This document shows, in pieces, positions 25,790 to 45,912 of a stretch of DNA of 64,000 bases. The stretch lies in contig NZ_CP157940.1 of assembly GCF_040207125.1 (NCBI RefSeq), positions 2,046,001-2,110,000 of the forward strand, given 5' to 3'. This DNA is from Lacrimispora sp. BS-2. Its GTDB lineage: Bacteria > Bacillota > Clostridia > Lachnospirales > Lachnospiraceae. Within the stretch, counting starts at the first letter, position 1, and each line of letters starts with the position of its first letter. The position numbers and the translations under genes are program-made. The notes beneath the pieces were generated by a model. That model was not told the origin of the DNA, made no database searches, and saw only the letters and a list, made by a program, of their open reading frames with translations.

Positions 25790-26017
25790 CTACTTCGTCT
25801 TTTCAATGACAATTTCCCACTCACCATCATCCACTTCTTCAATTTCTACGTTATGTCCCTGTTTTCTTGCCCACTCAGGAATATTCTTCATTGCACAGCT
25901 ATGATCGATGGATACGGCTAAAACGTCTCCTACGGATAACTCATTTATTTTCTTCTCAGTTTTCATAAGCGGGACCGGACAAGCCTCTCCCAGACAATCT
26001 AATGTAAATTCAGCCAT
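25790..26017 (-). CDS. TusA-like sulfur carrier protein
   Basis: The 75-residue protein has the TusA/SirA motif CLGEACPVPLMKTEKKI with the persulfide-forming Cys13 in CPxP, and the second landmark DHSCAMKNIPEWARKQGH. It would accept sulfur (or selenium) imported by the flanking YedE halves and relay it. A ribosome binding site AAAGGAG precedes the ATG. Confidence 0.92.
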   Translation of the reverse strand: MAEFTLDCLGEACPVPLMKTEKKINELSVGDVLAVSIDHSCAMKNIPEWARKQGHNVEIEEVDDGEWEIVIEKTK

Positions 26018-26043
26018 TTTTATATCTCCTTTATTTTAAAATT

Positions 26044-26730
26044 TTATTCTGCACTTCCCATTTTCTTTTCCTGCCATTTGACGGCTGCTATGTATAAAAG
26101 GACAATGATAAGTCCCTGTACAACGATTGCTCCAAACCAGCCAAACACATTCGGTAAAAAGATTTTCGGAGCATTTTCATTAAATCTGCTCCAGAAGTTC
26201 ATGTCGTGTGCACCCCAGAAAGAACCTGCAATGAAAAATACCAAAGACAGCATTTGCATGGTAAAGCCCTCTCCAACGCGCATCAAGGTTCCGGATGCAC
26301 AGCCACCGGCAATTACCATTCCGATACCAAACAGAACCGCGCCGACCATCAAGGGCAAACCGATGGGCGCTACGCCGGTCATGCTGAAATTGGATTCTGC
26401 ACTTGCCATTACACTGGCATACTTGATTGCCCAGAAACCAACGCTTGCAACTGCAACTGCCACCAATACGGCTCTTGTTACGGATGTGCTTCCGGTAATA
26501 CATGGATCACGGAATGCCGCCGTAAAGCAAAAACGAGAACGCTGCAGGATATACCCGAATGCAATTCCGAATCCCCAATAAACGGGCAGCTTATTGTTCC
26601 CTCCTGCCAAATAAAATCCAAATGCAATAATCAGGATTGTAAGCAAAATTGCATATGGAATCTGGCTCTTTTTTGGTTTTCTTGGTTTACGCACTCTTCC
26701 CCCACTTATGCTTGTGTTTACCTCTGACAC
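26044..26730 (-). CDS. YeeE/YedE family transporter, N-terminal half
   Basis: The 228-residue membrane protein carries LQRSRFCFTAAFRDP and GMVIAGGCASGTLMRVGEG, both YeeE/YedE pore motifs with conserved Cys. It is the first gene of a four-gene operon (yedE half, tusA, yedE half, TrxR-like). A GTG start is used, preceded by AAAGGGGG. Transcription is divergent from a LysR regulator whose likely box lies between them. Confidence 0.85.
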   Translation of the reverse strand: MSEVNTSISGGRVRKPRKPKKSQIPYAILLTILIIAFGFYLAGGNNKLPVYWGFGIAFGYILQRSRFCFTAAFRDPCITGSTSVTRAVLVAVAVASVGFWAIKYASVMASAESNFSMTGVAPIGLPLMVGAVLFGIGMVIAGGCASGTLMRVGEGFTMQMLSLVFFIAGSFWGAHDMNFWSRFNENAPKIFLPNVFGWFGAIVVQGLIIVLLYIAAVKWQEKKMGSAE

Positions 26731-26833
26731 GTAAATCCCCCTTTCTTAAAATAGTATTTGTTAATATTATAACAAAATCACAATTCAAATTATACCACAC
26801 TTATGAATATTCAGTTAATCAAGAATCCGATAT

Positions 26834-26854
26834 GTCATAAGATTTACTTATGAC
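26834..26854. promoter_or_regulatory. LysR-type operator (T-N11-A) in the divergent region
   Basis: GTCATAAG-ATTTA-CTTATGAC is a perfect 8-bp inverted repeat containing T-N11-A (26838 to 26850). It sits between the yedE operon and the LysR gene, where LysR regulators usually bind. Confidence 0.6.
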
Positions 26855-26892
26855 CCATTATTTTATCACACTAGCCACACCCAATTATATTT

Positions 26893-26937
26893 GCTATAAT
26901 AAAAGAACAAAAAAGAACTGTTAAGTTTTTAACAGTT
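26893..26937 (+). promoter_or_regulatory. Extended -10 promoter and 5'-UTR inverted repeat of the LysR gene
   Basis: TGCTATAAT (26892-26900) is an extended -10 without a clear -35. The transcript would include AACTGTTAA-GTTT-TTAACAGTT (26916-26937), a perfect 9-bp hairpin 43 bp before the start codon. Confidence 0.5.
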
Positions 26938-26980
26938 CAGTCAACTGGTTTGGAATTAAATGTCAGAAAGGCGGGGTAAC

Positions 26981-27880
26981 ATGAACATTCATAACCTGAA
27001 AATGTTTATAAAGATAGTGGAATCCGGCAGCATCTCAAAAACTGCGGAACTGATGAATATCAGCCAGTCCGCACTAAGCCAGCAGCTGCGGGTCATGGAG
27101 CAGGAATTAAATACACGGCTTTTTGAACGGAACTATCAGGGCGTGATTCCGACTAATATTGGTATGATTGTTTATAACCGTGCTCTTGAAATATTATCGT
27201 CCTATGACAGAATGCTGGTTGATATATCCAATGCACAGAACCAAAATAAAACCATACATATCCTTGCTTCTCCCTGTGTATATTCTTATGCCCTGCCATG
27301 CACCTTTTACCATGTAAAAAACAAGTACCCGGAATTTACACTTAATATGGAGATGATGTCCAGCAAAATCATAGAAGAAAAAGTATCAAAAGGCTTTGCT
27401 GATATGGGAATTATCATAGGCAGACCCAAGGATAAAAATCTAAGGGCCAAAAAAGTATTTTCCGACCGTGTTTTTCTGGTTGCAGGAGAAAAAATGAAGG
27501 TTCCTTCCCAGTTAGACTGCCAGGATCTTTATCATTATCCTCTGCTGATGCTGATGAAAGCCCAAAAGACAAGACAGGTGCTGGATAAAATGCTGAACAA
27601 AAACGGAATCCTCATCAATCAGCTTCATATTCCTTATACTCTTGAATCCACGGAATCCATTAAATTATCTGCTATTAATGGCTTCGGACTTGCTTTTCTT
27701 CCTTATATGGCAATTAAGAAGGAAATCTACAATAAACAGCTCCGCATTATTGAATGTCCATGGCTGGAATTTGATAATGAATATTATTCCATAAAAAATG
27801 CTGTCAGTGTTCCTCTCAATCATGAATCGTCAAAACTCATTAAGTACATTGAAGCAATATTAAAGGAGACTATTTGTTAG
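26981..27880 (+). CDS. LysR family transcriptional regulator
   Basis: The 299-residue protein begins MNIHNLKMFIKIVESGSISKTAELMNISQSALSQQLRVMEQELNTRLFER, the LysR winged helix, followed by a two-lobed effector domain. The ATG at 26981 is preferred because AAAGGCGGGG is correctly placed; the upstream ATG at 26960 is not. It is divergent from the YedE/TusA operon and convergent with a second tusA, so it probably controls sulfur import in response to a sulfur metabolite, as CysB-like regulators do. Confidence 0.9.
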   Translation: MNIHNLKMFIKIVESGSISKTAELMNISQSALSQQLRVMEQELNTRLFERNYQGVIPTNIGMIVYNRALEILSSYDRMLVDISNAQNQNKTIHILASPCVYSYALPCTFYHVKNKYPEFTLNMEMMSSKIIEEKVSKGFADMGIIIGRPKDKNLRAKKVFSDRVFLVAGEKMKVPSQLDCQDLYHYPLLMLMKAQKTRQVLDKMLNKNGILINQLHIPYTLESTESIKLSAINGFGLAFLPYMAIKKEIYNKQLRIIECPWLEFDNEYYSIKNAVSVPLNHESSKLIKYIEAILKETIC

Positions 27881-28091
27881 CAAAAACAGTAACTTCCCAT
27901 ACACCGTTAATGACTTCTTCTGTAGTATAACTTAAATTATTTGCCTTACAAAAAGCTTCAATATTAGAACTTGTACAGCTGTGATCCGTAACCAGCATAC
28001 ATTCCTCGCCTTTTTTTATGGAATCAATGACAGTTTTTAATCTCATAACAGGCACAGGGCACATATCGCCCAGACAATCGATTTTAACCAT
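27870..28091 (-). CDS. Second TusA-like sulfur carrier protein
   Basis: The 73-residue protein shows CLGDMCPVPVMRLKTVIDSI with the CPxP Cys11 and the DHSCTSSNIEAFC segment. It overlaps the 3' end of the LysR gene by 11 bp in convergent orientation. No transporter gene adjoins it; degraded DNA upstream suggests its original operon partner was lost. Confidence 0.88.
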   Translation of the reverse strand: MVKIDCLGDMCPVPVMRLKTVIDSIKKGEECMLVTDHSCTSSNIEAFCKANNLSYTTEEVINGVWEVTVFANK

Positions 28092-31104: not shown

Positions 31105-31725
31105 CTAATTATTATTGTCGTCACTATCCCCCAGATTGTTATCATTTCTTTCCTCCTTGGAAGCTCGTTGCAACTCAGCTTTTCTAGCTGCGATCATTCC
31201 TTCTAATTTATTAATTGTTTCCAATTCATTCTCTTCCTTTTCAAGTTTAAGTAAAGTGGATACCAGACGGAGAAATTGCGGCTTTTCATTTTGGGGAAAA
31301 CTATGCGAAAATTGTATAGTTGCATAAGCATTAGCTGTTATTAAAGGACTATAATTTCTGGCTGTTGTTTTTAACACACGAGAATACGATGATACCTCAA
31401 TTGCACCCTTCGATAATAAAGATTCTAAAATAACACCCTCAAAGATTTCGACTTCCGCACTTATGTTCCAAATTGATGCAGGCAGCACGAAACCTTCCTC
31501 TTCATTGCCGTAAGAATAAGCTTTTACCTGTTTCGTCGGTGACACCACCCGTTTAAAGTCAAATTTCAATTCTATTCTTTTCGGAATGAAATATCTGGTT
31601 TCCATTTCCCTGAAGCTGTTTTTATTGATAAATTCAAGGACGATGCCTTTACCGGAAAATATCAGTGTACCCTGGGCGCACCGCAAAAAGCCGCTTGCTC
31701 TTAATGAAAGAACAAACGGCTTCAA
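31105..31725 (-). CDS. Hypothetical protein with C-terminal coiled coil
   Basis: The 206-residue frame has no recognisable family. Residues about 40-150 are predicted beta-rich. The last 50 residues are strongly charged and helical (LLKLEKEENELETINKLEGMIAARKAELQRASKEER), a likely coiled coil, ending in an acidic Asp/Asn tail. The start is uncertain; an internal ATG (METRYFIPKRIEL) is possible. It lies 20 bp downstream of the M20 peptidase gene on the same strand and could be the last cistron of that operon. Confidence 0.5.
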   Translation of the reverse strand: MKPFVLSLRASGFLRCAQGTLIFSGKGIVLEFINKNSFREMETRYFIPKRIELKFDFKRVVSPTKQVKAYSYGNEEEGFVLPASIWNISAEVEIFEGVILESLLSKGAIEVSSYSRVLKTTARNYSPLITANAYATIQFSHSFPQNEKPQFLRLVSTLLKLEKEENELETINKLEGMIAARKAELQRASKEERNDNNLGDSDDNNN

Positions 31726-31745: not shown

Positions 31746-32903
31746 TTATAATTGTCCCAGACGATACAGGGCCAGTGCATAGATCTTTGCATTGGCTATT
31801 AAGTCTTCCACGCTCATCCACTCATTGGGATTATGGCTGATGCCTTTCTGGCCCGGGAAACTTGGACCAAAGGGAACAATTCCCGGCATGGCCTTGGCAT
31901 AAGTGCCGCCAGTGGTGGTCACAGGGGCACCATCCAGCCCTGTGACCAGTTCATAGCTCTCCTGCATGGCCTTAACCATGGGTGTGTCCTTTGGAAATAC
32001 CACCGGATCAAAATTCTGCATAAGCCCTGCAGTAAGCCCCTCTGCCCCGGCCTTACTGCAGATGCGCTTCATGATTTTATCGATAGTGACGCCTCCCGGA
32101 TAGCTTAACGTCACATCAAAGGCCGCCTGCCTTTTTCCACAGAGACTGTCCGGATCCACACTCAGCTTATATCCACGCATCTCCATCATCCCGTATTCCT
32201 CGTGGCTAAAATCAATCTCCAGCCGGTCGCCTGTATTCCTGGCTCCGATAAAATATTTATTTACAAAGTCAAAAAATATCTCCAACTGGTCGATACTGCC
32301 TGTGATCCGCACCACAGCCCTGCCCCGTTCGCTGTACACCACCGGATACTTGCAGTCCGGTGTGAAACCATAGAGAGGCGGTCTCTCCTTTGAAAGATAA
32401 TACTTCAGATCCTCAAATCCTGATTCTTCATCACATCCAAAGATAATTCGTACCGGATTCTTAAGGCTAAGTCCGGCCTCCTTAATGGCTGCCAGGCCAT
32501 AGAGACATGCCATGACTGGCCCTTTGTTGTCCAGCACTCCCCTGCTGTAGATGATTCCGTTCTCCATATAGCCGCTGAAAGGCTGCTGCCTCCAGCCTTC
32601 TCCTGCCGGAACTACATCCACATGACCGATGGCACAGACATAGCCCTCTTCTTTGCCATACTGGGCATATCCGATATAATTATCCAGGTTCACGGTGTCA
32701 AATCCCAGTTGCCTGCTGATACCCAGGGCATATTCCAGTGCATTCTTTACTCCAGTGCCAAAGGGAGCACCTTCGCAGGCCTCCCTTTCCACACTGTCAA
32801 TGCGCACCAGCTCCAGGACACTGTTTATAAACTGGTCCTTTAACCGGTCCACACAGTCCAGTATCTTCTTATCTGATTCATTTTCGATCTGTCTATATCC
32901 CAT
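31746..32903 (-). CDS. M20 family metallopeptidase (PepV/dipeptidase-like)
   Basis: The 385-residue protein belongs to the M20A peptidases. AIGHVDVVPAGEGW carries the first zinc ligand His and Asp. RGVLDNKGP carries the bridging Asp. FGCDEESGFEDL carries the catalytic Glu pair. TTGGTYAKAMPG is close to the PepV substrate loop. It is shorter than PepV (about 470). The gene overlaps the transcription unit of the asparaginase-like hydrolase, with GAGGAA inside the previous gene's end, indicating translational coupling. Likely job: removing amino acids from a dipeptide or glycosyl-amino-acid imported by the PTS. Confidence 0.85.
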   Translation of the reverse strand: MGYRQIENESDKKILDCVDRLKDQFINSVLELVRIDSVEREACEGAPFGTGVKNALEYALGISRQLGFDTVNLDNYIGYAQYGKEEGYVCAIGHVDVVPAGEGWRQQPFSGYMENGIIYSRGVLDNKGPVMACLYGLAAIKEAGLSLKNPVRIIFGCDEESGFEDLKYYLSKERPPLYGFTPDCKYPVVYSERGRAVVRITGSIDQLEIFFDFVNKYFIGARNTGDRLEIDFSHEEYGMMEMRGYKLSVDPDSLCGKRQAAFDVTLSYPGGVTIDKIMKRICSKAGAEGLTAGLMQNFDPVVFPKDTPMVKAMQESYELVTGLDGAPVTTTGGTYAKAMPGIVPFGPSFPGQKGISHNPNEWMSVEDLIANAKIYALALYRLGQL

Positions 32904-32906
32904 ATT

Positions 32907-33875
32907 CTATTCCTCTATGGGCGCCATGCGCGTCTTCATGTAATTTTCCATCCATTCTTCAGATGCTTTCTCGTAAGTGCAGCGGCCGTCCTCCCTGCGG
33001 GTCACCAGGTAAACCGTGGGGTCCTGCTCCTCAGTAACCACTGCGAAAGAGAACCCTTCTATATTTGTGGCAGCCCCCCACTCTCCCTTAGGGTTCATGG
33101 CAATGAGGGATATGTCACCGGCTTCGCCCCGACGTTCCCGAAGCTCCCCATCAAGCCGGTTCACCGCTGCCTCACAGGCTTCCTGAGGATGTATCCCCTC
33201 TCCCATAAGGCGGACGATCTCATAAGAAATACAGCCTTTCATCAGGTCCTCTCCCAGGCCGGTGGCGCTGGCAGCCCCTTTTTTGCTGTCAGCGTAAAAG
33301 CCGGAACCGGATATAGGGGAATCACCTACTCTGCCCTTTTTCTTCATGAACAGGCCGCTGGTTGAAGTAGCTGCCGTCATCTTGCCCTTTCCATCCAGAC
33401 AGGCCATGCCCACGGTATCATGACCGGAATAGGGCTTAAGCTCCTTAGAGGCCGCCTGGGCGGCCATCTCCTTTACCCGCTTCCTGTAATGTGCCTTAGC
33501 CCGGTCTGTCAGCATGTTCTTGCGTTCAAAGCCTTCCTTGTGGGCAAATTTCTCAGCGCCCTCAGCCACCAGCATGCTATTGACTTTCTCCGCACTCAGA
33601 CGCCTGGCAATAGACACCGGATTGGCAAAGTCCCTGATGGCAGCCACAGCTCCTATATCCAGAGTATTGCCGTCCATATAGGCCGCGTCCATTTCCACTT
33701 CCATTTCCTCATTAGGCAGTCCGCCATAGCCCACGGATTTATAATAAGGGAAGTCCTCCACCTGTCGGATGGCTGCCTCGATGGCATCCCCTGCGTCTCC
33801 GCTTTCCTTAAGCATCTCAGCTCCCTTTGTAATCCCTTCTACGGCCATACGCCATGTTGCTATCATTCCCCACAT
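32907..33875 (-). CDS. Ntn-hydrolase of the glycosylasparaginase/isoaspartyl peptidase family
   Basis: The 322-residue protein is an asparaginase_2 family Ntn-hydrolase. The autocleavage/nucleophile Thr lies in HDTVGMACLDGKGKMTAATSTSGL, and KGRVGDSPISGSGFYAD is the substrate-binding loop of glycosylasparaginases. These enzymes split GlcNAc-beta-Asn (N4-(beta-N-acetylglucosaminyl)-asparagine) or isoaspartyl dipeptides. There is no signal peptide, so the substrate is cytoplasmic, matching uptake by the PTS next door. AAAGGAGG precedes the ATG. It lies 15 bp after the GrdB-like gene. Confidence 0.87.
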   Translation of the reverse strand: MWGMIATWRMAVEGITKGAEMLKESGDAGDAIEAAIRQVEDFPYYKSVGYGGLPNEEMEVEMDAAYMDGNTLDIGAVAAIRDFANPVSIARRLSAEKVNSMLVAEGAEKFAHKEGFERKNMLTDRAKAHYRKRVKEMAAQAASKELKPYSGHDTVGMACLDGKGKMTAATSTSGLFMKKKGRVGDSPISGSGFYADSKKGAASATGLGEDLMKGCISYEIVRLMGEGIHPQEACEAAVNRLDGELRERRGEAGDISLIAMNPKGEWGAATNIEGFSFAVVTEEQDPTVYLVTRREDGRCTYEKASEEWMENYMKTRMAPIEE

Positions 33876-33890
33876 TGCAAAGGCCTCCTT

Positions 33891-34415
33891 TTATTTAAAA
33901 CAGAATTCATGGATCAGCTCGGAAGTGTCCGCATCGTCAGCCAGCGCTCTGGCCAGGGCACACATGTTCTTAAGGGCGTCATTAAGGCCCAGACCACCCT
34001 TTTTCGGCGTTTCCACAATCGCTACTTTATCCTTATAGGCCGCAATGGTATCTGCATTCTCCACAGACATGGCTGCAAATGCCTTGGCCCCGGTGGTGGC
34101 GTTGATATCACAAGCCACTTTGGCGCACATCTGCGCGTAATCCGCGTAATTAAAGGCTGGCCCGCACATTACCACATCCGGTTGTAACTTGTTCATCATG
34201 GCACAAAGCTTGCGGCTGACCTCCTCGGGATCAGCGAGGTATGTGCCGTTTCCGCAGCACAGGCAGGCCATTACGTGTCCATCCACCTGCTTTAAGAAAG
34301 GTTCCATCATGATTGCCGGTCCGATGGGCTCCTTTTTCCCTGTAAGGGGAACCATGGTGTCATCCTTGGTTCCAAGTCCTGATTGAATCTGATCGTATAT
34401 CATAATAAGCTTCAT
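33891..34415 (-). CDS. GrdB-like protein (glycine/sarcosine/betaine reductase component B, N-terminal part only)
   Basis: The 174-residue protein aligns by eye with the N-terminal region of GrdB-type reductase proteins: EPIGPAIMMEPFLKQV, ACLCCGNGTYLADPEEV and the diagnostic VVMCGPAFNYADYAQMCAKVACDI. GrdB proper is about 435 residues with a selenocysteine in its C-terminal half; that half and any Sec codon are absent here. Such short proteins occur in Firmicute PTS operons as 'GrdB-related putative oxidoreductases', without proven activity. The ATG at 34415 follows GAGGT; a GTG sits one codon upstream. It is 17 bp after the IIC gene. Confidence 0.75.
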   Translation of the reverse strand: MKLIMIYDQIQSGLGTKDDTMVPLTGKKEPIGPAIMMEPFLKQVDGHVMACLCCGNGTYLADPEEVSRKLCAMMNKLQPDVVMCGPAFNYADYAQMCAKVACDINATTGAKAFAAMSVENADTIAAYKDKVAIVETPKKGGLGLNDALKNMCALARALADDADTSELIHEFCFK

Positions 34416-34431
34416 CACTGTTTACCTCATT

Positions 34432-35763
34432 TTATAAGTCATCAAAGGAAAGGTCGTTAAGATCAATATCGTCGTCATCGGATTTCTCAACCGTCCTGGA
34501 CTCCTCTTCCAGGTACTGTTTATCCATCATCTTGATGAACGGCATATAGATGAATACGCCCAGTACAAGAAGAAGCATTTGAAGAACAGCTCCCTGCCAG
34601 CCGGTTGCCAGGAACCCGGAAAGGATAACAGGCATGGTCCATGGAATTGCTACACCGGAGCACAGCGGAACCAGGCCGATGCTCATACAGAAGTAGGAAA
34701 TCACAATGTTGATGGTTGGCACCAGCATGAAGGGAATAAGCATCATTGGGTTCAGCAAAATGGGCAGGCCAAACACGATGGGCTCATTGATACCGAACAA
34801 ACCAGGAATAAATGCCAGCTTTCCTAACTCCTTGATACGCTTGGAACGGCAGAAAAAGAGCATTGCTATTAACAGGGACAGGGTGGAGCCGCATCCGCCG
34901 AAGGTGGCGAACAGATCCTGGAACTGCTGGGATATAATATTGGGCAGCGGCTGGCCTGCCTGGAATGCAGCCAGGTTTTCGGCAGACAAAGTCTGAAGAA
35001 TGGGATTGAACACCGCACCCACCACGGAACCGCCGTTTACTCCAAAGAACCAGAAGATATGGAGAAAGATATAAGCGATTACCATAGCCGGAAGGGTATT
35101 GCCCAGCTTAAGAAGCGGAGTCTGCAGGATGGTGAATATAAAGTTGAAGGCGTTCTCATATGGTGTCATGGCAAAGACAATGTTCAGAATAAAGAACACC
35201 AGCACGGAAATTCCAGCAGGAATCAGGGCTGAGAAAGACTTTGCAACCGTTGGAGGAACACCGTCGGGCATCTTGATGATCCAGCCCTTTTTATTGACCC
35301 ACGCATAGATATGCACGGATAAGAAAGCCACAAGGATTCCTACAAAGATACCCCTGGAACCGACCCAGCCCAGCGGAATGCCGGACACGGCAGTATCATT
35401 TACCAGGATCTCATAAGGCATGATTAAGAACCAGCATACCAGTGATACGGCAGCTCCGAACAGCTTATCTACCTTCATCTGCTCTGAAAAGGAATAGCCG
35501 ATTCCAATCACTGCCAGCACTGCCATGATTGAGAAAGTGGCGTCAGTGGGCTTGGAGAAATAGGAGTCCCAGTGTTCCCCGAAGAACCTTGCCCAGAAAT
35601 CAGTCCACCCCGGAATCGGGAAGTTGGCAATGAGCAGGAAAAAGGAACCCACGATTAACAGCGGCATGGACAGCAGGAAGCCGTCACGAATTGCAATGAG
35701 ATACTTGTTCTTTCCAATTTTCTCTGCCAAAGGCATGAGCATTGACTCTAATTTACTTAACAT
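34432..35763 (-). CDS. PTS lactose/cellobiose-type transporter subunit IIC
   Basis: The 443-residue membrane protein is an EIIC of the lactose/N,N'-diacetylchitobiose/cellobiose family. It shows FLLSMPLLIVGSFFLLIANFP, WFFGVNGGSVVGAVFNPIL, FGGCGSTLSLLIAMLFF and FIPGLFGINEPIVFGLPILLNP, where the last carries the substrate-binding NEP motif. It forms the channel that translocates a disaccharide while IIB phosphorylates it. The matching IIB and IIA genes precede it. Confidence 0.93.
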   Translation of the reverse strand: MLSKLESMLMPLAEKIGKNKYLIAIRDGFLLSMPLLIVGSFFLLIANFPIPGWTDFWARFFGEHWDSYFSKPTDATFSIMAVLAVIGIGYSFSEQMKVDKLFGAAVSLVCWFLIMPYEILVNDTAVSGIPLGWVGSRGIFVGILVAFLSVHIYAWVNKKGWIIKMPDGVPPTVAKSFSALIPAGISVLVFFILNIVFAMTPYENAFNFIFTILQTPLLKLGNTLPAMVIAYIFLHIFWFFGVNGGSVVGAVFNPILQTLSAENLAAFQAGQPLPNIISQQFQDLFATFGGCGSTLSLLIAMLFFCRSKRIKELGKLAFIPGLFGINEPIVFGLPILLNPMMLIPFMLVPTINIVISYFCMSIGLVPLCSGVAIPWTMPVILSGFLATGWQGAVLQMLLLVLGVFIYMPFIKMMDKQYLEEESRTVEKSDDDDIDLNDLSFDDL

Positions 35764-35820
35764 ATTGTTGTTCCCCCGTTTTAATTTATTTTTGCTATTA
35801 ATAGAAGTTCTGTTTTTGCC

Positions 35821-36141
35821 TTATTTGGCTGCTTTCAAAAGCTTGATCGCAGATTTAAGGACCTTCTCACCATTCATCATACCGTAATCAGTCTGGTCAA
35901 TGACCTGAATCGGGATGCCTTTACTTCCGAACTTTTCCACAATCTCACCGTAACGGTATTTGACCTGGGGCCCTAAAAGTATCACATCCGGATGCTTCTC
36001 ATCGATGATCTGGCCGATCTTTCCATCAGGGAAAGCTTCCACTTCAATGGGAAGGTTATGCTCGTTGGCTACCGTCTGCATCTTGCTTGCCAGCATGCTG
36101 GTTGACATTCCTGCGCTGCAAAATAAATACACTCGCTTCAT
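35821..36141 (-). CDS. PTS lactose/cellobiose-type subunit IIB
   Basis: The 106-residue protein has the phosphocysteine Cys8 in LFCSAGMSTSMLASKM and the family segment VILLGPQVKYRYGEI. It accepts phosphate from IIA and transfers it to the sugar in IIC. It starts behind AAGGAGG and sits between the IIA and IIC genes. Confidence 0.93.
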   Translation of the reverse strand: MKRVYLFCSAGMSTSMLASKMQTVANEHNLPIEVEAFPDGKIGQIIDEKHPDVILLGPQVKYRYGEIVEKFGSKGIPIQVIDQTDYGMMNGEKVLKSAIKLLKAAK

Positions 36142-36180
36142 TGTAAAATCCTCCTTGCTATTTGCATTTTTTTATTTCCA

Positions 36181-36519
36181 TTATTTACTGCTCAACTTCT
36201 CCTCCAGCTTAACTATTCTCTCATAGCTGGCGATCATCTCCTCTGCAATGATCTTGAATGCTTCCGCGCTCATAAGCTGGTCTTCCGCATGAATCAGAAT
36301 CAGGGAACCGCCCACCATCTCACCCTGAGCTTCTTTCTGAATTAGTTCAAAGTGGGCCTCATGTCCTGTGAGGAACATTTCCTGACCGGCTTTCATACAT
36401 TCCCCGGCACCGTCAAAATCCCCATGCTTTGCTTTCTGGATCGCCTCAATGTAGCTGGACCGTGCACCGCCTACATTGGATATGATTTTAAAACAAATCG
36501 TCTCTAAGCCCTCTAACAT
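36181..36519 (-). CDS. PTS lactose/cellobiose-type subunit IIA
   Basis: The 112-residue three-helix protein has the phosphorylated His77 in GGSLILIHAEDQLMSAE and the N-terminal GGARSSYIEAIQKAKHGDF. The ATG at 36519 is preferred because CAGGAGG lies 8 bp upstream; a longer frame lacks a site. It is the first gene of the PTS operon and is preceded by a hairpin and the palindrome at 36649-36667. Confidence 0.92.
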   Translation of the reverse strand: MLEGLETICFKIISNVGGARSSYIEAIQKAKHGDFDGAGECMKAGQEMFLTGHEAHFELIQKEAQGEMVGGSLILIHAEDQLMSAEAFKIIAEEMIASYERIVKLEEKLSSK

Positions 36520-36552
36520 ATTACTGCCTCCTGTATGTGTTAATGAAAACAA

Positions 36553-36583
36553 GATGCAGCAAAACCGTTCTGTTTGCTGCATC
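36553..36583 (-). terminator. Terminator or leader attenuator before the PTS operon
   Basis: GATGCAGCAAA (36553-36563) pairs with TTTGCTGCATC (36573-36583) around a 9-nt loop, followed on the reverse strand by TTGTTTTC. It lies 86 bp after the regulator gene and 34 bp before IIA, so it either ends the regulator transcript or attenuates the PTS operon. Confidence 0.6.
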
Positions 36584-36648
36584 TTAAATTAAGCTGCCTT
36601 AATTAATTATAATTATAAGGCACTTATTCAATTTTTTCCTTAAAGGTA

Positions 36649-36667
36649 TTTCCTAGCTCTTAGGAAA
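36649..36667. promoter_or_regulatory. 19-bp palindromic operator, copy 1
   Basis: TTTCCTA-GCTCT-TAGGAAA is a perfect 7-bp inverted repeat with 5-bp spacer, 130 bp upstream of the IIA start. An identical arrangement with a different spacer recurs at 39831-39849, supporting a regulator binding site for the PRD protein of this locus. Confidence 0.65.
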
Positions 36668-36668
36668 T

Positions 36669-38588
36669 TCACTCCATGATCCGGTCGATAAATTCATCAT
36701 ATTCGCAGGGAGCCGCCAATTTTGCCAGCTCCTCAGGCTGATTCACTATGTTGGATATCCAGTCAAAGAAGATTTTAATCATCCTGGCATCTCCTTTATT
36801 GATAGCGAACAGCATTACCAGCCGTACCTCAAAGACGCCCCATTTCACAGGATTTTTAAGCTGGGCCACCGCAATGGTGGAATTCCTGGCAAAGGCCCCA
36901 AAGGCATGGGGAATAGCAAATGTATTCACAAAGGAGGTTGGGGACATCTGCTCTCTCTTTAATACCACATCTGTAAATTCCGGGTCCACAACGCCCGCCT
37001 TTATGAGACTTAAGCACAGCAGGGTGATAATTTCCTCCGGACTGGTACAGTTCACCTCAGTATGGTAGTGCTCCCGGGGGATTAAGTTGCCGATATGGGA
37101 GGAAAACTCCAGCCGGAATCCTTTCTTATCCAGCCGGTTGATGGCCTGGAGAATCCTGGACTCTGTTTCAGAATCCACAAATAAGTTAATGGGGACTGTT
37201 TCCACATTAAGCCCGTGCTCCAGGGGAAATGTACTGAGCAGCAGGTCCGGATCCAGGGAAGATACTGCCTCCTCTTCAAAATAACCAAAGACCTTTACCA
37301 CTTCCATCCTCTCACGAAACATATCGGAGATTTTCTTCACACACATATCGGAAAAGGACTGGTTGTGAGGCAGGATCATTACGGCACAGTACTTCCTTTC
37401 CGCTTTCATGCGCTCACTGGCAGCTCCCAGATGAAGGGCGATATAACAGCTCTCCGCATCGGATATAGGAGTCTTAAGCCTTTCTTCCAGAAATTGCAGC
37501 ACGTAGATGCCCATCTCAAAGACCAGAGGGTATTTGCGCTTGATCTCTTCCACAAATATATCCTCCATCCGAACCTGGTTCCTGACGCGCTCGACCAGTC
37601 CGTGGATATGCATCTTAAGACCGGCGATAAGGTCCCCATCCTGTCGGAAATCCAGCCCGAACAGAGTGTATATCTGCTCCAGGGCCTCACCTACCAGCTT
37701 TCTGGTACTCAGCCACCTGCCGGCGAAATTCACGTAATCATCAGTATAATTGGAAGACTTTCTCCCCATGACCACCAGGGCGAACATACTGACTTCGCCG
37801 TCCTGGATCTTTATGTGCAGGCGTTTGGAAATTCGGTCATAGAAGTCCCGTGAAATCTGGTACTCAATGGTATCCTCAAGTTCCGGCATCTCCTCATCCA
37901 TGCTGATGTAGTTGGCGCAGTTCATCCTCTCAATGCTGGTACCGGCGTGCAGGATAAGCATGGGAAACATGGATTCATGAATGGAATAATCGTATTCCTT
38001 CAGCACAGCCACGAATATGTCCTTTACTTCGATCAAATTAAAGCTTTTGTACAAATTAGCCAGCAGGTTTAAGTTGAGAAAATTCTCCTGCACTTCGGCC
38101 ATCAGAAGATCCTTGTAAAACCGCCGTTTTCCAGCCTCATCCCCCTTTAAGGAAATGCATTCCCTATTGCGGACCAGCTTTAAGCCGGGATAGGGCTCCA
38201 GCATCTTCCGTATACGCTTTAAGTCATTGTCAATGGAGGCTCCGCTGACATAGATCTGGCTCTGGAGAAGGGTGAGGTTCAGTTCCTTCACCTCGAATAA
38301 CAGCTTCTGTATAATGTATGCACAGCGGGCACCTGGAGTCTGGGGAATATCCCCTCCCCTGGATTCTTTCAGCGGCAGAGGAGATATTCTGGCCTTTTCG
38401 CAGATCCGGTAGCCCTTCCGAACATTAGATTCTATGGGAGGCGGGATCATTTGTCTGTTGATGGATTCCACATCGGAGCGTATGGTACGGTCCGACACCT
38501 GCAGAAGTACAGCCAGGCGCCGGCTGGTTATCCAGTCTCTCCGCTCAGATAATATGGTAAGCAGCTGCTCCTGTCTTTCATTCTGCAT
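36669..38588 (-). CDS. PRD-containing transcriptional regulator (BglG/MtlR/LicR type with PTS domains)
   Basis: The 639-residue regulator begins with a DeoR/Mga-like helix-turn-helix (LLTILSERRDWITSRRLAVLLQVSDRTIRSDVESIN). Two PTS regulation domains follow, then a IIB-like segment (YCAVMILPHNQSFSDMCVKKI) and a C-terminal IIA-like domain (FVNTFAIPHAFGAF with its His). Phosphorylation of PRD histidines by HPr/IIB tunes activity to sugar availability. The ATG at 38588 follows AAAAGGAG with 9-bp spacing; the frame extends further upstream without a site. It is encoded between the muramidase-like gene and the PTS operon and is the natural candidate to bind the two palindromes. Confidence 0.9.
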   Translation of the reverse strand: MQNERQEQLLTILSERRDWITSRRLAVLLQVSDRTIRSDVESINRQMIPPPIESNVRKGYRICEKARISPLPLKESRGGDIPQTPGARCAYIIQKLLFEVKELNLTLLQSQIYVSGASIDNDLKRIRKMLEPYPGLKLVRNRECISLKGDEAGKRRFYKDLLMAEVQENFLNLNLLANLYKSFNLIEVKDIFVAVLKEYDYSIHESMFPMLILHAGTSIERMNCANYISMDEEMPELEDTIEYQISRDFYDRISKRLHIKIQDGEVSMFALVVMGRKSSNYTDDYVNFAGRWLSTRKLVGEALEQIYTLFGLDFRQDGDLIAGLKMHIHGLVERVRNQVRMEDIFVEEIKRKYPLVFEMGIYVLQFLEERLKTPISDAESCYIALHLGAASERMKAERKYCAVMILPHNQSFSDMCVKKISDMFRERMEVVKVFGYFEEEAVSSLDPDLLLSTFPLEHGLNVETVPINLFVDSETESRILQAINRLDKKGFRLEFSSHIGNLIPREHYHTEVNCTSPEEIITLLCLSLIKAGVVDPEFTDVVLKREQMSPTSFVNTFAIPHAFGAFARNSTIAVAQLKNPVKWGVFEVRLVMLFAINKGDARMIKIFFDWISNIVNQPEELAKLAAPCEYDEFIDRIME

Positions 38589-38635
38589 GTCTAAATACTC
38601 CTTTTTTTGCTGTATTCTTCTGCAATAGCCTCTGT

Positions 38636-39727
38636 TCAGAGAATGCTGAATGCAAACACCGTCCATGGCTTTGCATAATCCAGCAGAACGTGCTCATACT
38701 CAGGTAGATGACCGATAACATTTTTGCGGCCGTCATTTGGCATGTCTTTGGTGACGATTTGCAGTTCCCCCTTATATTTGGGATAACCATCATTTAAGAT
38801 GACCACATCACCAGGTTTTAATTCCCTGGTATTGGCAGCAGGAATGGAGTGGTCTGCAAATGTGACTCTGGGACCGGAGGAACGGATCATATAGTCGCTT
38901 ACATCACCTCTTACCACATGATGGGACTTATAATCCAGGATCTGGTGCTCGGTCTGAGTCAGTTCTTTCTCCAGCTGGATACGAAAGGTCAGAATGCTGG
39001 AATTAAGACCGGCACAAGCCTTAAGTTCCTCATCAGTGGCATAGGCATTAGCAATGAGCACATCATCTACCATGCCGGTGGCAAACAGATGACGCACCTG
39101 AAAATCAATGGGAAGACCGCGGTGCATCTCCAGAGTACACAGTCCTTCATTTACGGGCCACGGGCCATATGCAAAAGGCGCGTTGCTGGACACAAAGGCC
39201 GCCACCTTAAGCCCCAGTGATTTTATCTTTTCATTACAGGTATTAAAATGTTTAAGGCTCAATCCCGTGTACTTCTGCGGATAAAAATTGTGGCAGGTAA
39301 TTAGCTTTTCACGATCCGGATGATGATCTATGATATTCTCCACATATGCCAGCTTGGCGCTGGAATTGAGCTCTATTTTAAGCCCCTGGGGATTGTAAGT
39401 CATAAGGCTTTCTTTCATGCCGTCAAAGCCTTCATCCAGACGGATGCCATCCACATGCATTTCCTGAAATATGGATAAGTCTTCGTAGGAGATTCCCAGC
39501 CGGGAGAATACGGCAGGGCTTACATCCGGTATGATCTCCATACCGCAGGCGTGGGCTTCATCCGCCAGTCTCCGAAAACGGCCGATTACCTCTTCCCTGC
39601 TCTCCTCCACGCTTAAGAGACAGGTAAAGATTCTCTTATACCCCAATCTCCCTGCCTTTCTGATATATTCCATGTCCTTTTCTTCAGTAGAATGTTCCGG
39701 ATAAACGGAAATGCCCAATCTTGCCAT
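38636..39727 (-). CDS. MupG-like TIM-barrel protein (6-phospho-N-acetylmuramidase family, DUF871)
   Basis: The 363-residue protein begins MARLGISVYPEHSTEEKDMEYI and contains DVSPAVFSRLGISYEDLSIFQEM, GIRLDEGFDG, IELNSSAKLA and CHNFYPQKYTGL, all typical of the MupG/DUF871 family with an N-terminal TIM barrel and a cyclophilin-like C-terminal domain. Staphylococcus aureus MupG hydrolyses MurNAc-6-phosphate-GlcNAc taken up by a PTS. Here it implies that the PTS product is a 6-phosphorylated amino-sugar disaccharide. The ATG at 39727 follows GAGGGG; an upstream ATG lacks a site. Confidence 0.85.
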   Translation of the reverse strand: MARLGISVYPEHSTEEKDMEYIRKAGRLGYKRIFTCLLSVEESREEVIGRFRRLADEAHACGMEIIPDVSPAVFSRLGISYEDLSIFQEMHVDGIRLDEGFDGMKESLMTYNPQGLKIELNSSAKLAYVENIIDHHPDREKLITCHNFYPQKYTGLSLKHFNTCNEKIKSLGLKVAAFVSSNAPFAYGPWPVNEGLCTLEMHRGLPIDFQVRHLFATGMVDDVLIANAYATDEELKACAGLNSSILTFRIQLEKELTQTEHQILDYKSHHVVRGDVSDYMIRSSGPRVTFADHSIPAANTRELKPGDVVILNDGYPKYKGELQIVTKDMPNDGRKNVIGHLPEYEHVLLDYAKPWTVFAFSIL

Positions 39728-39830
39728 ATAAATTACCCCTCTCTTATATTTAACCAGCCGGTCCTGATCTGCCGGATGGTCCTTTGACATTAACTATAAT
39801 CCGTCAAGAAAGAGTTTGGAGATAAATCTG

Positions 39831-39849
39831 TTTCCTAATTACTAGGAAA
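39831..39849. promoter_or_regulatory. 19-bp palindromic operator, copy 2
   Basis: TTTCCTA-ATTAC-TAGGAAA has the same arms and spacing as copy 1 and lies 104 bp upstream of the MupG-like gene. Confidence 0.65.
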
Positions 39850-39863
39850 TAATCTTGTTTCTG

Positions 39864-40121
39864 CTATAAATTGGCCGGAAGAAATTCCTTAAGGAAACTC
39901 AATGCCTTGTTCTCATCCGTCCCCTCCACTATAAACTCCAGTAATTCTCCCTGGCGTGCTCCCAGACCTATGAGCGAAAGCACATTCTTGCAATCCGCTG
40001 TACCTTTCCTGCTCTTAAGGGTTATACGGCTCTCATATTCCGATGCCGTCCTGCTCAGCCTCATAGCATTGATAGCGTGGAGCCCCTGTTTGTCCGATAC
40101 TATGTATTCATAACTTATCAT
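39864..40121 (-). CDS. HPr-like phosphocarrier protein
   Basis: The 85-residue protein has the HPr fold with His15 in KQGLHAINAMRLS and a NVLSLIGLGARQG segment at the regulatory-serine region. In canonical HPr the active site is HARPA with Arg17; here it is HAINA, so Arg17 is replaced by Ile, which should alter phosphotransfer. The position suggests a dedicated phosphocarrier for the adjacent PTS rather than the housekeeping HPr. It starts 80 bp downstream of a terminator-like hairpin. Confidence 0.85.
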   Translation of the reverse strand: MISYEYIVSDKQGLHAINAMRLSRTASEYESRITLKSRKGTADCKNVLSLIGLGARQGELLEFIVEGTDENKALSFLKEFLPANL

Positions 40122-40234: not shown

Positions 40235-40330
40235 CATACTCTGTCTCTGATTTTTATCAATTGTCCCGCCCCCCCTAAAAATCATAATCGAAGCCACAAG
40301 CTGTCATGCCTGCGGCTTATCACCAGAATA

Positions 40331-40365
40331 GAGATAGCAGGATTCGAACCCATGACCCTGCTTAA
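40331..40365 (-). other. tRNA-like 3' fragment (possible attachment scar)
   Basis: The reverse strand reads CATGGGTTCGAATCCTG with a flanking acceptor-like CTATCTC, a T-arm and acceptor 3' strand arrangement. T-stem pairing is imperfect, no CCA is encoded and no 5' half is present. It lies next to a phage-type muramidase gene. Confidence 0.4.
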
Positions 40366-40518: not shown

Positions 40519-40536
40519 TTGAATTTGCAAATTCAA
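40519..40536 (+). promoter_or_regulatory. Perfect 18-bp palindrome in the muramidase leader
   Basis: TTGAATTTGCAAATTCAA is a perfect palindrome 24 bp upstream of the start codon and just before the AAAAGGAG site. It is well placed as an operator. Confidence 0.45.
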
Positions 40537-40560
40537 CAAAATAGAAAAGGAGATATTATT

Positions 40561-41460
40561 ATGGCAGATTATGATAACTCAAGATATACCTATGCCCAGG
40601 TGCTTGCAGGCACTGGCTATTACATGAAGGATGACAAGCTTCGTTACAGTGCAGGTGTAAAAACCATGCAGACGAAATTAAATACAGCAGGGCACAAATG
40701 CGGCACTCCTGATGGAAAATTCGGCAATAATAGTGATACCGCAGTAAGAAGCTTTCAGAGAGCCAAAGGTCTTACTGTAGATGGTAAAGCCGGAAAAAAC
40801 ACCCTTATTGCACTTGATAAGGCAGCAGCCGGCGGCGATTCTGGCGGTGGCTCCGGCGCCAGTACGGCAGCTAAAAACTTAAAGAAGAAATTCGGATCTA
40901 TTATTTCTTCATTTGCATCGAAATATTCCATTGATGAGGACGTTTTAGGCGGATTTATCCTGACAGAATCGTCTGGATCAGGCTTTACCGACGGAAAGTT
41001 ATTAATCCGGTTTGAAAACCATATTTTCTTAAAAAATGTTTCCAACGCTTCCTCAACCTTTAAGGTGGAAAATAAGGTACATTATTACTACAAAAACGGC
41101 AAATGGAATCAGACTCATACCGGAAAGCAGGCCAGTGAATATGAAGCCTTTAACCTGGCAAAAAACATCAGTGAGTATTATGCATATTATTCTATCAGTA
41201 TGGGACTCCCCCAGATTATGGGCTTTAACTATAAAGTTACCGGTTATGACTCTCCAGCAGCCATGTTTAAGGATTTCAGCATCAGTGAGGACAAGCAGAT
41301 GACAGGATTTTGCACCTTTGTTGCAAAATACGACAATGGCTCATTATTAAAAGCTTGCCAGTCACGTGATTTTACTAACATGGGGAAAATTTACAATGGA
41401 GACGGTGACACCTATGGTCCTAAGTTAAAGAAAAATGCAGCCGATTACGCAAAAGCATAA
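40561..41460 (+). CDS. Peptidoglycan-binding N-acetylmuramidase (DUF3380-type endolysin-like)
   Basis: The 299-residue protein has an N-terminal peptidoglycan-binding domain (MQTKLNTAGHKCGTPDGKFGNNSDTAVRSFQRAKGLTVDGKAGKNTL), a Gly/Ser linker, and a C-terminal muramidase domain with FILTESSGSGF, LLIRFENHIF and SISMGLPQIMGFNYKVTGY, as in DUF3380 lysozymes of phages. There is no signal peptide, so release needs a holin, lysis or non-classical export, and no holin gene adjoins it. AAAAGGAG precedes the ATG. It is probably a prophage or bacteriocin remnant, or a wall enzyme captured from one. Confidence 0.85.
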   Translation: MADYDNSRYTYAQVLAGTGYYMKDDKLRYSAGVKTMQTKLNTAGHKCGTPDGKFGNNSDTAVRSFQRAKGLTVDGKAGKNTLIALDKAAAGGDSGGGSGASTAAKNLKKKFGSIISSFASKYSIDEDVLGGFILTESSGSGFTDGKLLIRFENHIFLKNVSNASSTFKVENKVHYYYKNGKWNQTHTGKQASEYEAFNLAKNISEYYAYYSISMGLPQIMGFNYKVTGYDSPAAMFKDFSISEDKQMTGFCTFVAKYDNGSLLKACQSRDFTNMGKIYNGDGDTYGPKLKKNAADYAKA

Positions 41461-44523: not shown

Positions 44524-44835
44524 TTACCAGCCAAACTTTTCCGCCATATCATTAAATATTTTTTCACCTCTCATCATCCCATAGTCTTTCATATTAATAA
44601 CCTCAACAGGAACATCCGGATATTTTTTTACTATGGTATCCTTCATATATCCTACCTGAGGTCCAAGCAAAATCACGTCACTACCCGGAGCTGCCGACTG
44701 CAAGCTATGAACAGAATAGGCATCGCACTCTGTTCCTTCATAGCCTTTCTTTTCTGATGCTGCGATAATTTTCCTGCACAACATACTGCTTGACATACCG
44801 CCAGCACAGGCAAGTGTTATTTTAAGCTTTTTCAT
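44524..44835 (-). CDS. Orphan PTS lactose/cellobiose-type subunit IIB
   Basis: The 103-residue protein has the phosphocysteine Cys10 in LACAGGMSSSMLCRKI and VILLGPQVGYMKDTI, so it is an intact IIB. No IIA or IIC gene is adjacent. It follows the DUF5692-type membrane protein gene by 18 bp, indicating a two-gene operon in which the membrane protein may replace a IIC or be regulated by IIB phosphorylation. Confidence 0.88.
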   Translation of the reverse strand: MKKLKITLACAGGMSSSMLCRKIIAASEKKGYEGTECDAYSVHSLQSAAPGSDVILLGPQVGYMKDTIVKKYPDVPVEVINMKDYGMMRGEKIFNDMAEKFGW

Positions 44836-44853
44836 ATTTCTTCTCCCTTAAAT

Positions 44854-45912
44854 TTACTCTGCCAAAGCCTTAATCTCCTGATACTTCTTATGATCCGTAT
44901 ATAATTCTCCGGTATATGGATTTCTCTTTGTCTTATACATTCTGTGAATCATATAGACAAATACTCCGATATTTACAAGAAGAGCCAGTAAACTCATAAC
45001 GAATAATAAAGTAGTATCCGGTGATACACCTGCCACCGGCTGGATTCCTGTTCCGGTCAATACCGTATACCCGTCAGGGGAAAGGATTCTTTCCCGTATT
45101 GCTGCTTCTGCAATTGCCTTACTGGATCCGGAATGCACCAGAAAACGACTGGCATCCTGAAATGCAGGAAACGTCTGGGCAAACATACACCACAGAGCCA
45201 GTGTCTGGGCACGATGCTGCAGCCATGCTCCCTTACCAATTGTAAATGCACAGATCGTAGGAGCCAGTAAAAGTGCAAATCCGCAATACCATGCGTGAGT
45301 GGGAAGGCAGTTATAGGTATAAGCAAAATTCCACAAATCATAGGCAATAATCCAGAACCACATCATATCAGGCCAAAGCATATCCTGGCTTTTATCCTTA
45401 CTGGTCTTCTTTCGAATACAAATTCCAAACCAGCCTGTAATGGTCACAATATTTAAAAGACCTGCAATCCCATTCATGACATTCCATGGACCGCCGATAT
45501 AGTACTGAACCTGATTGTTCATATACTCCATAACCGGTGTCACATACCGGCTTACTTCAAAATCCCGGAAACAGGCTTCCAGGATATTTACAGCCAGAAT
45601 TAACGGCGGGAAACACAACGCAATTTTATTATGCTGCAGCTTTTTGATATGACGGATACACCAAAAACCAATACAGCCCGCCGTAGAAGAATAAACCTTT
45701 GCCAGATGAAACCAGTCCATATAAGAAGTATCCTTTAACCTTGTCATCCATAAAACTGTTAAAACTACCGGAAGCACAACAAAGCAGCCAAACCCCACCC
45801 ATTTAAAACGGCGGCTCAATTCATTTGCAGCAAACAACGATAAGAACACCCCAAGCCATACCAGTAACACCAATATTGTTGGAACACTTTCTGAAAATAC
45901 AAACATACCCAT
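44854..45912 (-). CDS. Polytopic membrane protein, DUF5692-like
   Basis: The 352-residue protein has about nine predicted membrane helices. A conserved-looking core contains YIGGPWNVMNGIAGLLNIVTITGW and WFWIIAYDLWNFAYTYNCLPTHAWYCGFALLLAPT. I assign it tentatively to DUF5692; the function of that family is unknown. It is not a recognisable EIIC. AGGAGG overlaps the stop codon of a gene fragment upstream, showing that an operon partner was removed. Confidence 0.65.
   Translation of the reverse strand: MGMFVFSESVPTILVLLVWLGVFLSLFAANELSRRFKWVGFGCFVVLPVVLTVLWMTRLKDTSYMDWFHLAKVYSSTAGCIGFWCIRHIKKLQHNKIALCFPPLILAVNILEACFRDFEVSRYVTPVMEYMNNQVQYYIGGPWNVMNGIAGLLNIVTITGWFGICIRKKTSKDKSQDMLWPDMMWFWIIAYDLWNFAYTYNCLPTHAWYCGFALLLAPTICAFTIGKGAWLQHRAQTLALWCMFAQTFPAFQDASRFLVHSGSSKAIAEAAIRERILSPDGYTVLTGTGIQPVAGVSPDTTLLFVMSLLALLVNIGVFVYMIHRMYKTKRNPYTGELYTDHKKYQEIKALAE

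Follow-up and report, generated by a model that had tools for sequence, protein, structure and literature searches.

Nine genes on the minus strand of a stretch of DNA from Lacrimispora sp. BS-2, at positions 31746-40121, appear on balance to constitute a complete operon, with regulation of its own, for the catabolism of N-linked sugar-asparagine stubs. The stretch analysed, referred to throughout as the window, is 64,000 nt long and belongs to a genome consisting of a single contig of 4.49 Mb; coordinates are positions within the window unless a locus label precedes them. In the order of transcription the genes encode an HPr-like phosphocarrier, a glycosidase of family GH170 (MupG family), a PRD/EIIA regulator, the IIA, IIB and IIC components of a phosphotransferase system (PTS), a GrdB-like protein, an N-terminal nucleophile (Ntn) hydrolase of family PF01112 and an M20 dipeptidase (Table 1). 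An earlier prediction, made from the sequence alone, had named these genes, a complete cellobiose-type PTS included, and both the open reading frame (ORF) listing, in which each of the nine has its own ORF, and the Pfam and NCBIfam profile matches by which the families of the window proteins were assigned confirm it. The tight spacing that it reported is equally real, since the last six genes are closely spaced and the gaps calculated from the coordinates are 13 nt between IIC and the GrdB-like gene, 15 nt between the latter and the hydrolase gene and only 3 nt between the hydrolase and M20 genes.

Glycosylasparagines are end products of glycoprotein digestion. In the pathway proposed here the PTS would import N-acetylglucosaminyl-asparagine (GlcNAc-Asn) and/or chitobiosyl-Asn, short glycopeptides included, and would phosphorylate the sugar at O6. 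The GH170 enzyme would release GlcNAc-6-phosphate where a second GlcNAc is present, and the M20 dipeptidase would trim the flanking residues to leave an Asn with free amino and carboxyl groups, a task in which a pair of M42 aminopeptidases may join or replace it in some other loci. The Ntn hydrolase would then cleave GlcNAc(6P)-Asn to give aspartate and the sugar, with GlcNAc-6-phosphate passing on to NagA and NagB, whilst the PRD regulator would act at the palindrome TTTCCTA-N5-TAGGAAA. The substrate, the order of the steps, the phosphorylated intermediates and the part played by the GrdB-like protein are those that the gene families and their arrangement would predict.

Only one bacterial glycosylasparagine pathway, that of a lactobacillus, was found in the literature searched, and the present locus would represent a second, PTS-based route. 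The available text on the alf-2 cluster of Lactobacillus casei BL23 describes an intracellular glycosylasparaginase, encoded by asnA2, which cleaves GlcNAc-Asn and whose gene is linked to pepV (PMC6960285), a pairing of glycosylasparaginase and M20 peptidase that is also seen in the window. Unlike the window locus, alf-2 encodes a major facilitator superfamily (MFS) permease, an alpha-fucosidase, an aspartate decarboxylase, a sugar kinase and a GntR regulator, and the gene list given in the accessible part of that report contains no PTS, GH170 or GrdB-like gene (PMC6960285). Neither an MFS permease nor an alpha-fucosidase is found among the nine window proteins, and the locus has a PTS. The chb cluster of Lacticaseibacillus paracasei BL23 shares the combination of a cellobiose-type PTS with a GH170 hydrolase, and both were needed for diacetylchitobiose according to the sections of the report that were available (PMC12791066). 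In the same sections, a mutant of chbD, which encodes a DUF3284 protein, needed a longer lag before growth on chitobiose, from which the authors propose a role in PTS transport, whilst the gene list includes no GrdB-like protein, Asn-conjugate hydrolase or M20 peptidase (PMC12791066). The window locus in turn lacks the DUF3284 gene that stands beside the PTS and GH170 genes in chb; DUF3284 was absent from the nine window proteins and, by tblastn, from all 80 related loci described below. The literature searched, as far as its available text goes, holds no published description of a locus with a glycosylasparaginase, a PTS and a GrdB-like protein. The parts are all of known families; what is, as far as can be told, undescribed is their combination, the putative operator private to the locus and the fact that the GrdB-like protein is paired with a single IIC clade.

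Conservation of the cassette

Stand-alone GrdB-like proteins were aligned and the resulting pattern was searched in one genome per GTDB species. The best 80 of the 114 loci that matched the pattern form the census, which is hence conditional on GrdB and which includes near-copies (four Clostridioides difficile records and two contigs of Clostridium sp. KNHs214) as well as short contigs. A gene was scored as present when tblastn gave at least 40 bits on the strand of the GrdB-like gene. By this measure the core of the cassette consists of IIC (80/80), IIB (76/80), M20 (75/80), the hydrolase (74/80) and IIA (68/80), accompanied by variable neighbours, namely CutC (64/80), the PRD regulator (61/80), RDD (44/80), YitT (42/80), GH170 (33/80), HPr (16/80) and the M42 peptidase pair (7/80). 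The order is also conserved, in that IIC and the GrdB-like gene are adjacent on the same strand in 76 of the 80 loci, the GrdB-like gene and the hydrolase in 64 of 74, and the hydrolase and M20 in 66 of 73.

The hosts belong to the Lachnospiraceae, Clostridiaceae, Peptostreptococcaceae (with C. difficile), Erysipelotrichaceae, Coprobacillaceae and Butyricicoccaceae, and two Atopobiaceae add a second phylum beside the Bacillota. Enterocloster, Hungatella, Thomasclavelia and C. difficile are among the carriers of the putative PTS-based route, and many of the carriers are gut anaerobes. Of the named organisms represented among the loci, Lacrimispora celerecrescens is the closest, with a GrdB-like protein that is 94% identical. 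A concatenated tree of 69 rows, from which the nearest relative (L064) is omitted because its IIC is split in two, requires 18 changes of family label against a least possible number of 9, and transfer of the cassette between families is therefore likely, though not proven.

Two further samples consisted of genomes drawn from the phylum and from the family, and in the family genomes the search was also run in reverse, with IIC or the hydrolase and not the GrdB-like protein as the point of departure. The GrdB-like protein is uncommon, exceeding the cut-off of NF041545 in 2 of 398 phylum-drawn and 7 of 397 family-drawn genomes. With the window IIC as query, matches were obtained in 91 of the 397 family genomes and reached at least 46% identity in seven, a line that was set post hoc and below which the next matches are at 45% and 43%. 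These seven are the same seven genomes that hold the GrdB-like gene (Fisher p 3.4e-15), and in each of them the two genes lie no more than 0.5 kb apart, with IIA in between in the genome G590. The window hydrolase found matches in 11 family genomes, seven of them at 71% identity or above, and six of these seven belong to the set with the GrdB-like gene and IIC. In G590 the IIC, GH170, HPr and GrdB-like genes are present and no hydrolase match was obtained. The census and the reverse tests together reveal very strong co-occurrence in other genomes, which is one of the points on which the original prediction had chosen to stand or fall.

The putative operator, the regulator and the leader

In the whole 4.49-Mb genome the palindrome TTTCCTA-N5-TAGGAAA has just two perfect copies, and the locus holds both. 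A reversed control pattern also gives two matches in the same genome, so that the count within this genome proves little; the weight of the palindrome comes from the position of both real sites inside the locus and from its footprint in relatives. With up to one mismatch allowed, the 80 loci contain 60 sites, spread over 40 of the loci, and 59 of these sites precede a cassette gene by no more than 500 nt, which bears out the earlier claim of shared operator-like palindromes. The reversed pattern gives a single site in all 80 loci. Where the PRD match is at least 450 bits the palindrome is found in 38 of 45 loci, as against 2 of the remaining 35, and it forms the most conserved block in both promoter-region alignments of close relatives. 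The palindrome is hence a good candidate for the operator of the PRD regulator.

Two further elements were seen in the leader. Between the operator and the IIA gene there is a strong hairpin, GATGCAGCAAA...TTTGCTGCATC (36552-36585, minus strand), which folds better than shuffled sequences (z -2.8), recurs in several close relatives and might serve in attenuation or in mRNA stability. Another inverted repeat, GCCTTATAAT...AAGGC (36596-36621, minus strand), which several close relatives share, lies downstream of the operator and extends over a likely -10 box.

The hydrolase and the dipeptidase

The window hydrolase matches the glycosylasparaginase of Elizabethkingia meningoseptica with 200 bits and isoaspartyl peptidases with no more than 133 bits. 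It contains the catalytic HDT motif with a Thr nucleophile at the site of autoproteolysis, and the beta chains of the solved enzymes align from its residue 154, which is the Thr of HDTVG. HDTVG occurs without exception in the 77 hydrolases that 85 loci yielded. The GRVGDSP motif is present in 65 of the 77, is one residue off in three more and is represented by GRxGDSA in the six that were inspected of the nine others. The family of the enzyme is thus known, and activity on a 6-phosphosubstrate is what its place in a PTS operon would predict. Given the strong co-occurrence and the closer relationship of the hydrolase to true glycosylasparaginases, glycoasparagine is the better of the two substrates, glycoasparagine or muropeptide, between which the original prediction had left the choice.

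Glycosylasparaginases as a class require free amino and carboxyl groups on the Asn, as stated in the portion of the L. casei report that is available (PMC6960285). The M20 protein belongs to the Sapep dipeptidase subfamily TIGR01887 and matches PepV (1lfw) with 172 bits, although with 385 residues it is shorter than the 470 residues of PepV. The metal-ligand motifs are kept in 76 of the 85 loci, and in the other nine there is either no M20 match or a short one.

More distant hydrolases (45-48%), whose independent contexts count in favour of the proposed pathway, occur in genomes of the family beside genes that score below the curated cut-offs of the models after which they are named here. One (L156) adjoins a glucosamine-6-phosphate-deaminase-type gene and a glucose/maltose-type PTS IIBC, a second (L158) a glucosamine-6-phosphate-deaminase-type gene and GH4, and a third (L159) genes for an oligopeptide-type ABC importer, whilst the contexts of two others (L157 and L160) are uninformative. 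The first of these arrangements (L156:6946-10230), from another genome of the same family, may represent a further PTS-based route for glycosylasparagines.

It is unlikely, but has something to commend it, that the substrate is some other aspartyl or asparaginyl adduct, such as an isoaspartyl dipeptide glycoside or the Amadori compound fructose-asparagine, and that the hydrolase is an asparaginase or an isoaspartyl peptidase. Isoaspartyl peptidases also fall within PF01112, two of the distant homologues stand beside a deaminase-type gene, and on this view the cleavage enzyme that is missing could be the GrdB-like protein. The difference in bit scores argues against such an adduct, as does the retention of the ATW, HDTVG and GRVGDSP stretches in the window hydrolase. 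Moreover, the listed neighbours include neither a FraB-like (SIS) gene nor a kinase gene, for which no dedicated search was made, and the presence of GH170 in 33 of the 80 loci suits an N-acetylhexosamine better.

The phosphotransferase system and the phosphocarrier

The window IIA, IIB and IIC belong to the lactose/cellobiose family and have the active-site residues. The IIB motif C[SG].GMS[TS] is present in 74 of the 85 loci (five of the 11 misses have no IIB match), the INE motif of IIC in 78 and the HxxDxLM-type motif of IIA in 50 by the pattern used. The only solved relative of IIC that was found is 3qnq (386 bits), annotated as a cellobiose IIC, which we take to be the diacetylchitobiose transporter of Bacillus cereus. 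Asn243 of the window IIC stands where 3qnq has a His, presumably His250. The Asn is found in 81 of 82 aligned rows, that of the window included, and the exception is the sister locus L163. In the IICs of family genomes without the GrdB-like gene, the same position is His in 22 of 23 and Asn in one (L192).

When aligned with the HPr chains of B. subtilis, the HPr-like protein of the window keeps His15 and has an Asn at the position of Ser46 and an Ile for Arg17, in the usual HPr residue numbering. The HPr proteins of 16 loci (among L060-L080 and L119) likewise keep the His15 motif; read by eye, they have Asn (seven), Gln (seven) or Lys (two) at the Ser46 position and none has Ser, whilst Arg17 is present in six of the proteins and replaced in ten. 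With Ser46 lacking throughout, these locus-borne proteins should escape control by HPr kinase. The window genome has 11 HPr-like matches, nine of them over the cut-off. The private HPr of the original prediction is present at the locus as an HPr-like gene, but with 16 of 80 loci it is an inconstant part of the system.

The GrdB-like protein

GrdB is the selenoprotein B of glycine, sarcosine and betaine reductase. The GrdB-like protein covers positions 2-160 of the 347 in PF07355, so that the C-terminal selenocysteine domain is absent, and unlike GrdB its gene is found in a PTS operon. It falls in NF041545 (GrdB_like_no_Se), for which the NCBI name is only putative oxidoreductase. No GrdE or GrdA was seen among the nine window proteins scanned, and no dedicated search was made for them. 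With the N-domains of 47 full-length GrdBs it has in common Gln10, Gly16, Gly33, Cys55-Gly56, Pro80-Asp81, Gly86-Pro87, Asn90, Met117 and Glu120-Asn121. The residues that mark the family are Lys140 (82/82 alignment rows against 0/47 full-length GrdBs), Cys153 (81/82 against 1/47) and Cys173 (80/82 against 4/47). Cys85 is a less sharp mark (82/82 against 13/47), as is Lys139, which is found in 18 of the 47 GrdBs, and Cys55 is present in 82 of the 82 rows.

The structure model of the protein (pLDDT 95.6) has an alpha/beta arrangement, and fold comparison returned generic matches only. Cys55 is placed just after the strand 47-54 and Cys85 ends the strand 82-85, and in the model the two thiols may hence be close to one another at the sheet edge. 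The protein could be either an accessory protein, in the manner of DUF3284, or a thiol enzyme that uses these two cysteines at neighbouring strand ends.

The genomic evidence suggests where the protein might act. The gene tracks the IIC clade rather than the hydrolase, since G590 has IIC and the GrdB-like gene in the absence of the hydrolase and another family genome, G665, has the hydrolase in the absence of both. There is also a sister group of GrdB-like proteins (in the genomes of L003-L006), which score 162-164 bits and so fall below the cut-off of NF041545. In the one locus of this group that was examined widely (L163:5950-13672), the sister gene lies between the IIA and IIB genes of another PTS, together with a LevR-like regulator, a GH1 glycosidase and no hydrolase, and the linkage of the GrdB-like domain to PTS genes is therefore wider than the window system. 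It is most likely that the GrdB-like protein serves the PTS or its first phosphorylated product. The original prediction had rightly singled it out as the least explained part, and its link proves to be with the PTS IIC and not with the asparaginase. For a family with so little annotation, its partnership with one IIC clade in the sampled genomes offers a first handle. A tentative extension, which we regard as possible but doubtful, is that the IIC clade and its partner represent a new class of PTS, in which the permease imports N-glycopeptide stubs and needs a thiol protein of its own, a stand-alone, selenium-free GrdB N-domain, to act on the phosphorylated conjugate or to aid the permease itself.

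The same observations bear on whether the locus has a single function. It might instead join two functions loosely, a beta-glycoside PTS with its GrdB-like accessory protein and an unrelated peptide-salvage pair, the hydrolase and M20, on a shared promoter. Four loci (L112, L115, L117 and L119) have PTS genes, GH170 and the GrdB-like gene and lack both the hydrolase and M20, the sister at L163 accompanies a PTS and a GH1 glycosidase, and G665 has the hydrolase with neither PTS nor GrdB-like gene. Such a loose union is nevertheless quite unlikely, as the hydrolase (74/80) and M20 (75/80) accompany the PTS in several families and two phyla, mostly as adjacent genes, and the pairwise distances of the four proteins correlate at 0.73-0.88 over 66 loci, values that carry no correction for phylogeny.

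GH170 and the nature of the substrate

The window genome has three GH170 genes, which lie in three different loci. The GH170 of the window is 67% identical to that of a chb-like locus, L180 (G000:C1:3112000-3127000), which holds lactose-type PTS genes, DUF3284, GH1, GH4 and M42 in addition to GH170. It is only 29% identical to the GH170 of L181 (G000:C1:3006000-3020000, near 3.01 Mb), where the neighbours are MurQ, over its cut-off, a MurR/RpiR-type regulator and a sucrose/N-acetylmuramic acid (MurNAc)-type PTS IIBC. Because a separate mur-type locus exists and its GH170 is so distant, the window locus is not the obvious MurNAc salvage system of this genome. The description of the window enzyme as a 6-phospho-muramidase relative hence stands as a family name and is misleading as a function, and with three GH170 genes in three loci the genome serves as a warning that MupG matches do not always signify peptidoglycan recycling.

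The mur locus of Staphylococcus aureus resembles the window in having a GH170 gene beside a PTS, but is built on MurQ and MurP in the part of the report that is available (PMC6262408). MurQ was found in none of the 80 related loci (query search, tblastn) and is not among the nine window proteins. Salvage of muropeptides or MurNAc-GlcNAc, in which the PTS would import peptidoglycan fragments, GH170 would be a 6-phospho-N-acetylmuramidase and the peptidases would trim stem peptides, can draw on the membership of GH170 in the MupG family, whose S. aureus representative cleaves MurNAc-6P-GlcNAc in the available account (PMC6262408), but the absence of MurQ, the separate mur-type set at L181 and the lactose/cellobiose type of the window PTS make it very unlikely, and the muropeptide half of the substrate originally predicted falls with it.

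Several observations weigh against the preferred assignment, an operon for sugar-asparagine stubs. Only 33 of the 80 loci have GH170 on the cassette strand, and a disaccharide substrate is therefore not general; as an Asn replaces the His of 3qnq, the substrate of IIC need not be chitobiose-like either. NagA queries found no match in the 80 loci and NagB queries one (tblastn), with a nagA gene present elsewhere in the window genome. CutC, YitT and RDD are left unexplained by the assignment, and CutC is absent from the window locus. The hydrolase is missing from 6 of the 80 loci and M20 from 5, gaps for which contig ends are partly responsible. G665 has its hydrolase gene (72% identical) near the start of a contig, preceded by the end of a beta-galactosidase-type gene and followed by CutC; no GrdB-like or IIC match was found in that genome, and the hydrolase can therefore exist without this PTS. 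Finally, in the available text on L. casei, loss of pepV left growth on fucosyl-GlcNAc-Asn at the level of the wild type, and an MFS permease, not a PTS, was responsible for uptake (PMC6960285).

Feature coordinates and neighbouring genes

The features of the locus are collected in Table 1. The likely start codons of the MupG gene (ATG 39727), the PRD gene (ATG 38588) and the IIA gene (ATG 36519) were read by eye.

Table 1. Genes and sequence elements of the locus, in the order of transcription
Feature	Position in window	Strand	Evidence and remarks
HPr-like phosphocarrier, 85 aa	39864..40121	-	PF00381 69.7 bits
Putative operator palindrome TTTCCTA-N5-TAGGAAA, upstream of MupG	39831..39849		Perfect genome copy; footprint conserved
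GH170 (MupG-family) 6-phosphoglycosidase, 363 aa from likely ATG	38636..39727 (longer ORF to 39790)	-	MupG_N 301.6 bits, MupG_C 120 bits (cut-offs ~24)
PRD/Mga-HTH/EIIA-2 transcriptional regulator	36669..38588 (ORF open to 38666)	-	PF00874, PF05043, PF00359, PF08279
Putative operator palindrome TTTCCTA-N5-TAGGAAA, upstream of IIA	36649..36667		Perfect genome copy; footprint conserved
PTS IIA, lactose/cellobiose family	36181..36519 (ORF open to 36582)	-	PF02255 103 bits
PTS IIB, lactose/cellobiose family, active-site CSAGMST	35821..36141	-	PF02302 66 bits
PTS IIC, cellobiose/chitobiose type	34432..35763	-	TIGR00359 461 bits (cut-off 434)
GrdB-like protein without selenocysteine half, 175 aa	33891..34418	-	NF041545 243.6 bits (cut-off 175)
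Ntn hydrolase, glycosylasparaginase type, 322 aa, HDTVG nucleophile motif	32907..33875	-	PF01112 (Asparaginase_2) 230 bits
PepV/Sapep-like M20 dipeptidase, 385 aa	31746..32903	-	PF01546 99 bits; TIGR01887 333 bits (cut-off 208)
Probable terminator hairpin, 3' of M20 gene	31686..31722	-	By eye; not listed by a hairpin scan with a loop limit of 8

A TIM barrel of the CutC family is encoded near many of the cassettes (among L060-L139; for example L060:12694-13446), and of the 65 loci with both CutC and M20, 60 have CutC directly 3' of M20. The family is annotated for copper homeostasis. The CutC copy of C. difficile has a weak match to PRA-isomerase, below the cut-off, and this match together with the place of the gene in a sugar-phosphate operon suggests a phosphosugar enzyme. 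The CutC gene of the window genome is located elsewhere (L183), after genes for an oligopeptide-type ABC transporter. In G665 (L155:1383-3130) the 72%-identical hydrolase gene is followed by CutC, with no M20, PTS or GrdB-like gene, and because of this genome the hydrolase and CutC may belong together more than either does with the PTS.

Upstream of the HPr gene there is a stretch that resembles the 3' part of a tRNA, GGGTTCGAATCC (40320-40360), in which ARAGORN finds no tRNA and which is possibly an integration scar. Near it, at 40519-41460, is a gene for a peptidoglycan-binding, lysin-like protein, named by eye. Further away, 44524-45912 holds a lone lactose-type IIB-like gene and a gene for a membrane protein of 352 residues (both by eye), with no IIC gene beside them up to about position 46000. 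On the other side of the locus are two TusA-like genes (25790-26017 and 27870-28091) and a YedE/YeeE-like transporter gene (26044-26730), identified by eye near a LysR-type regulator, and the genes of this region (25790-28091) are possibly concerned with the handling of sulfur or selenium.

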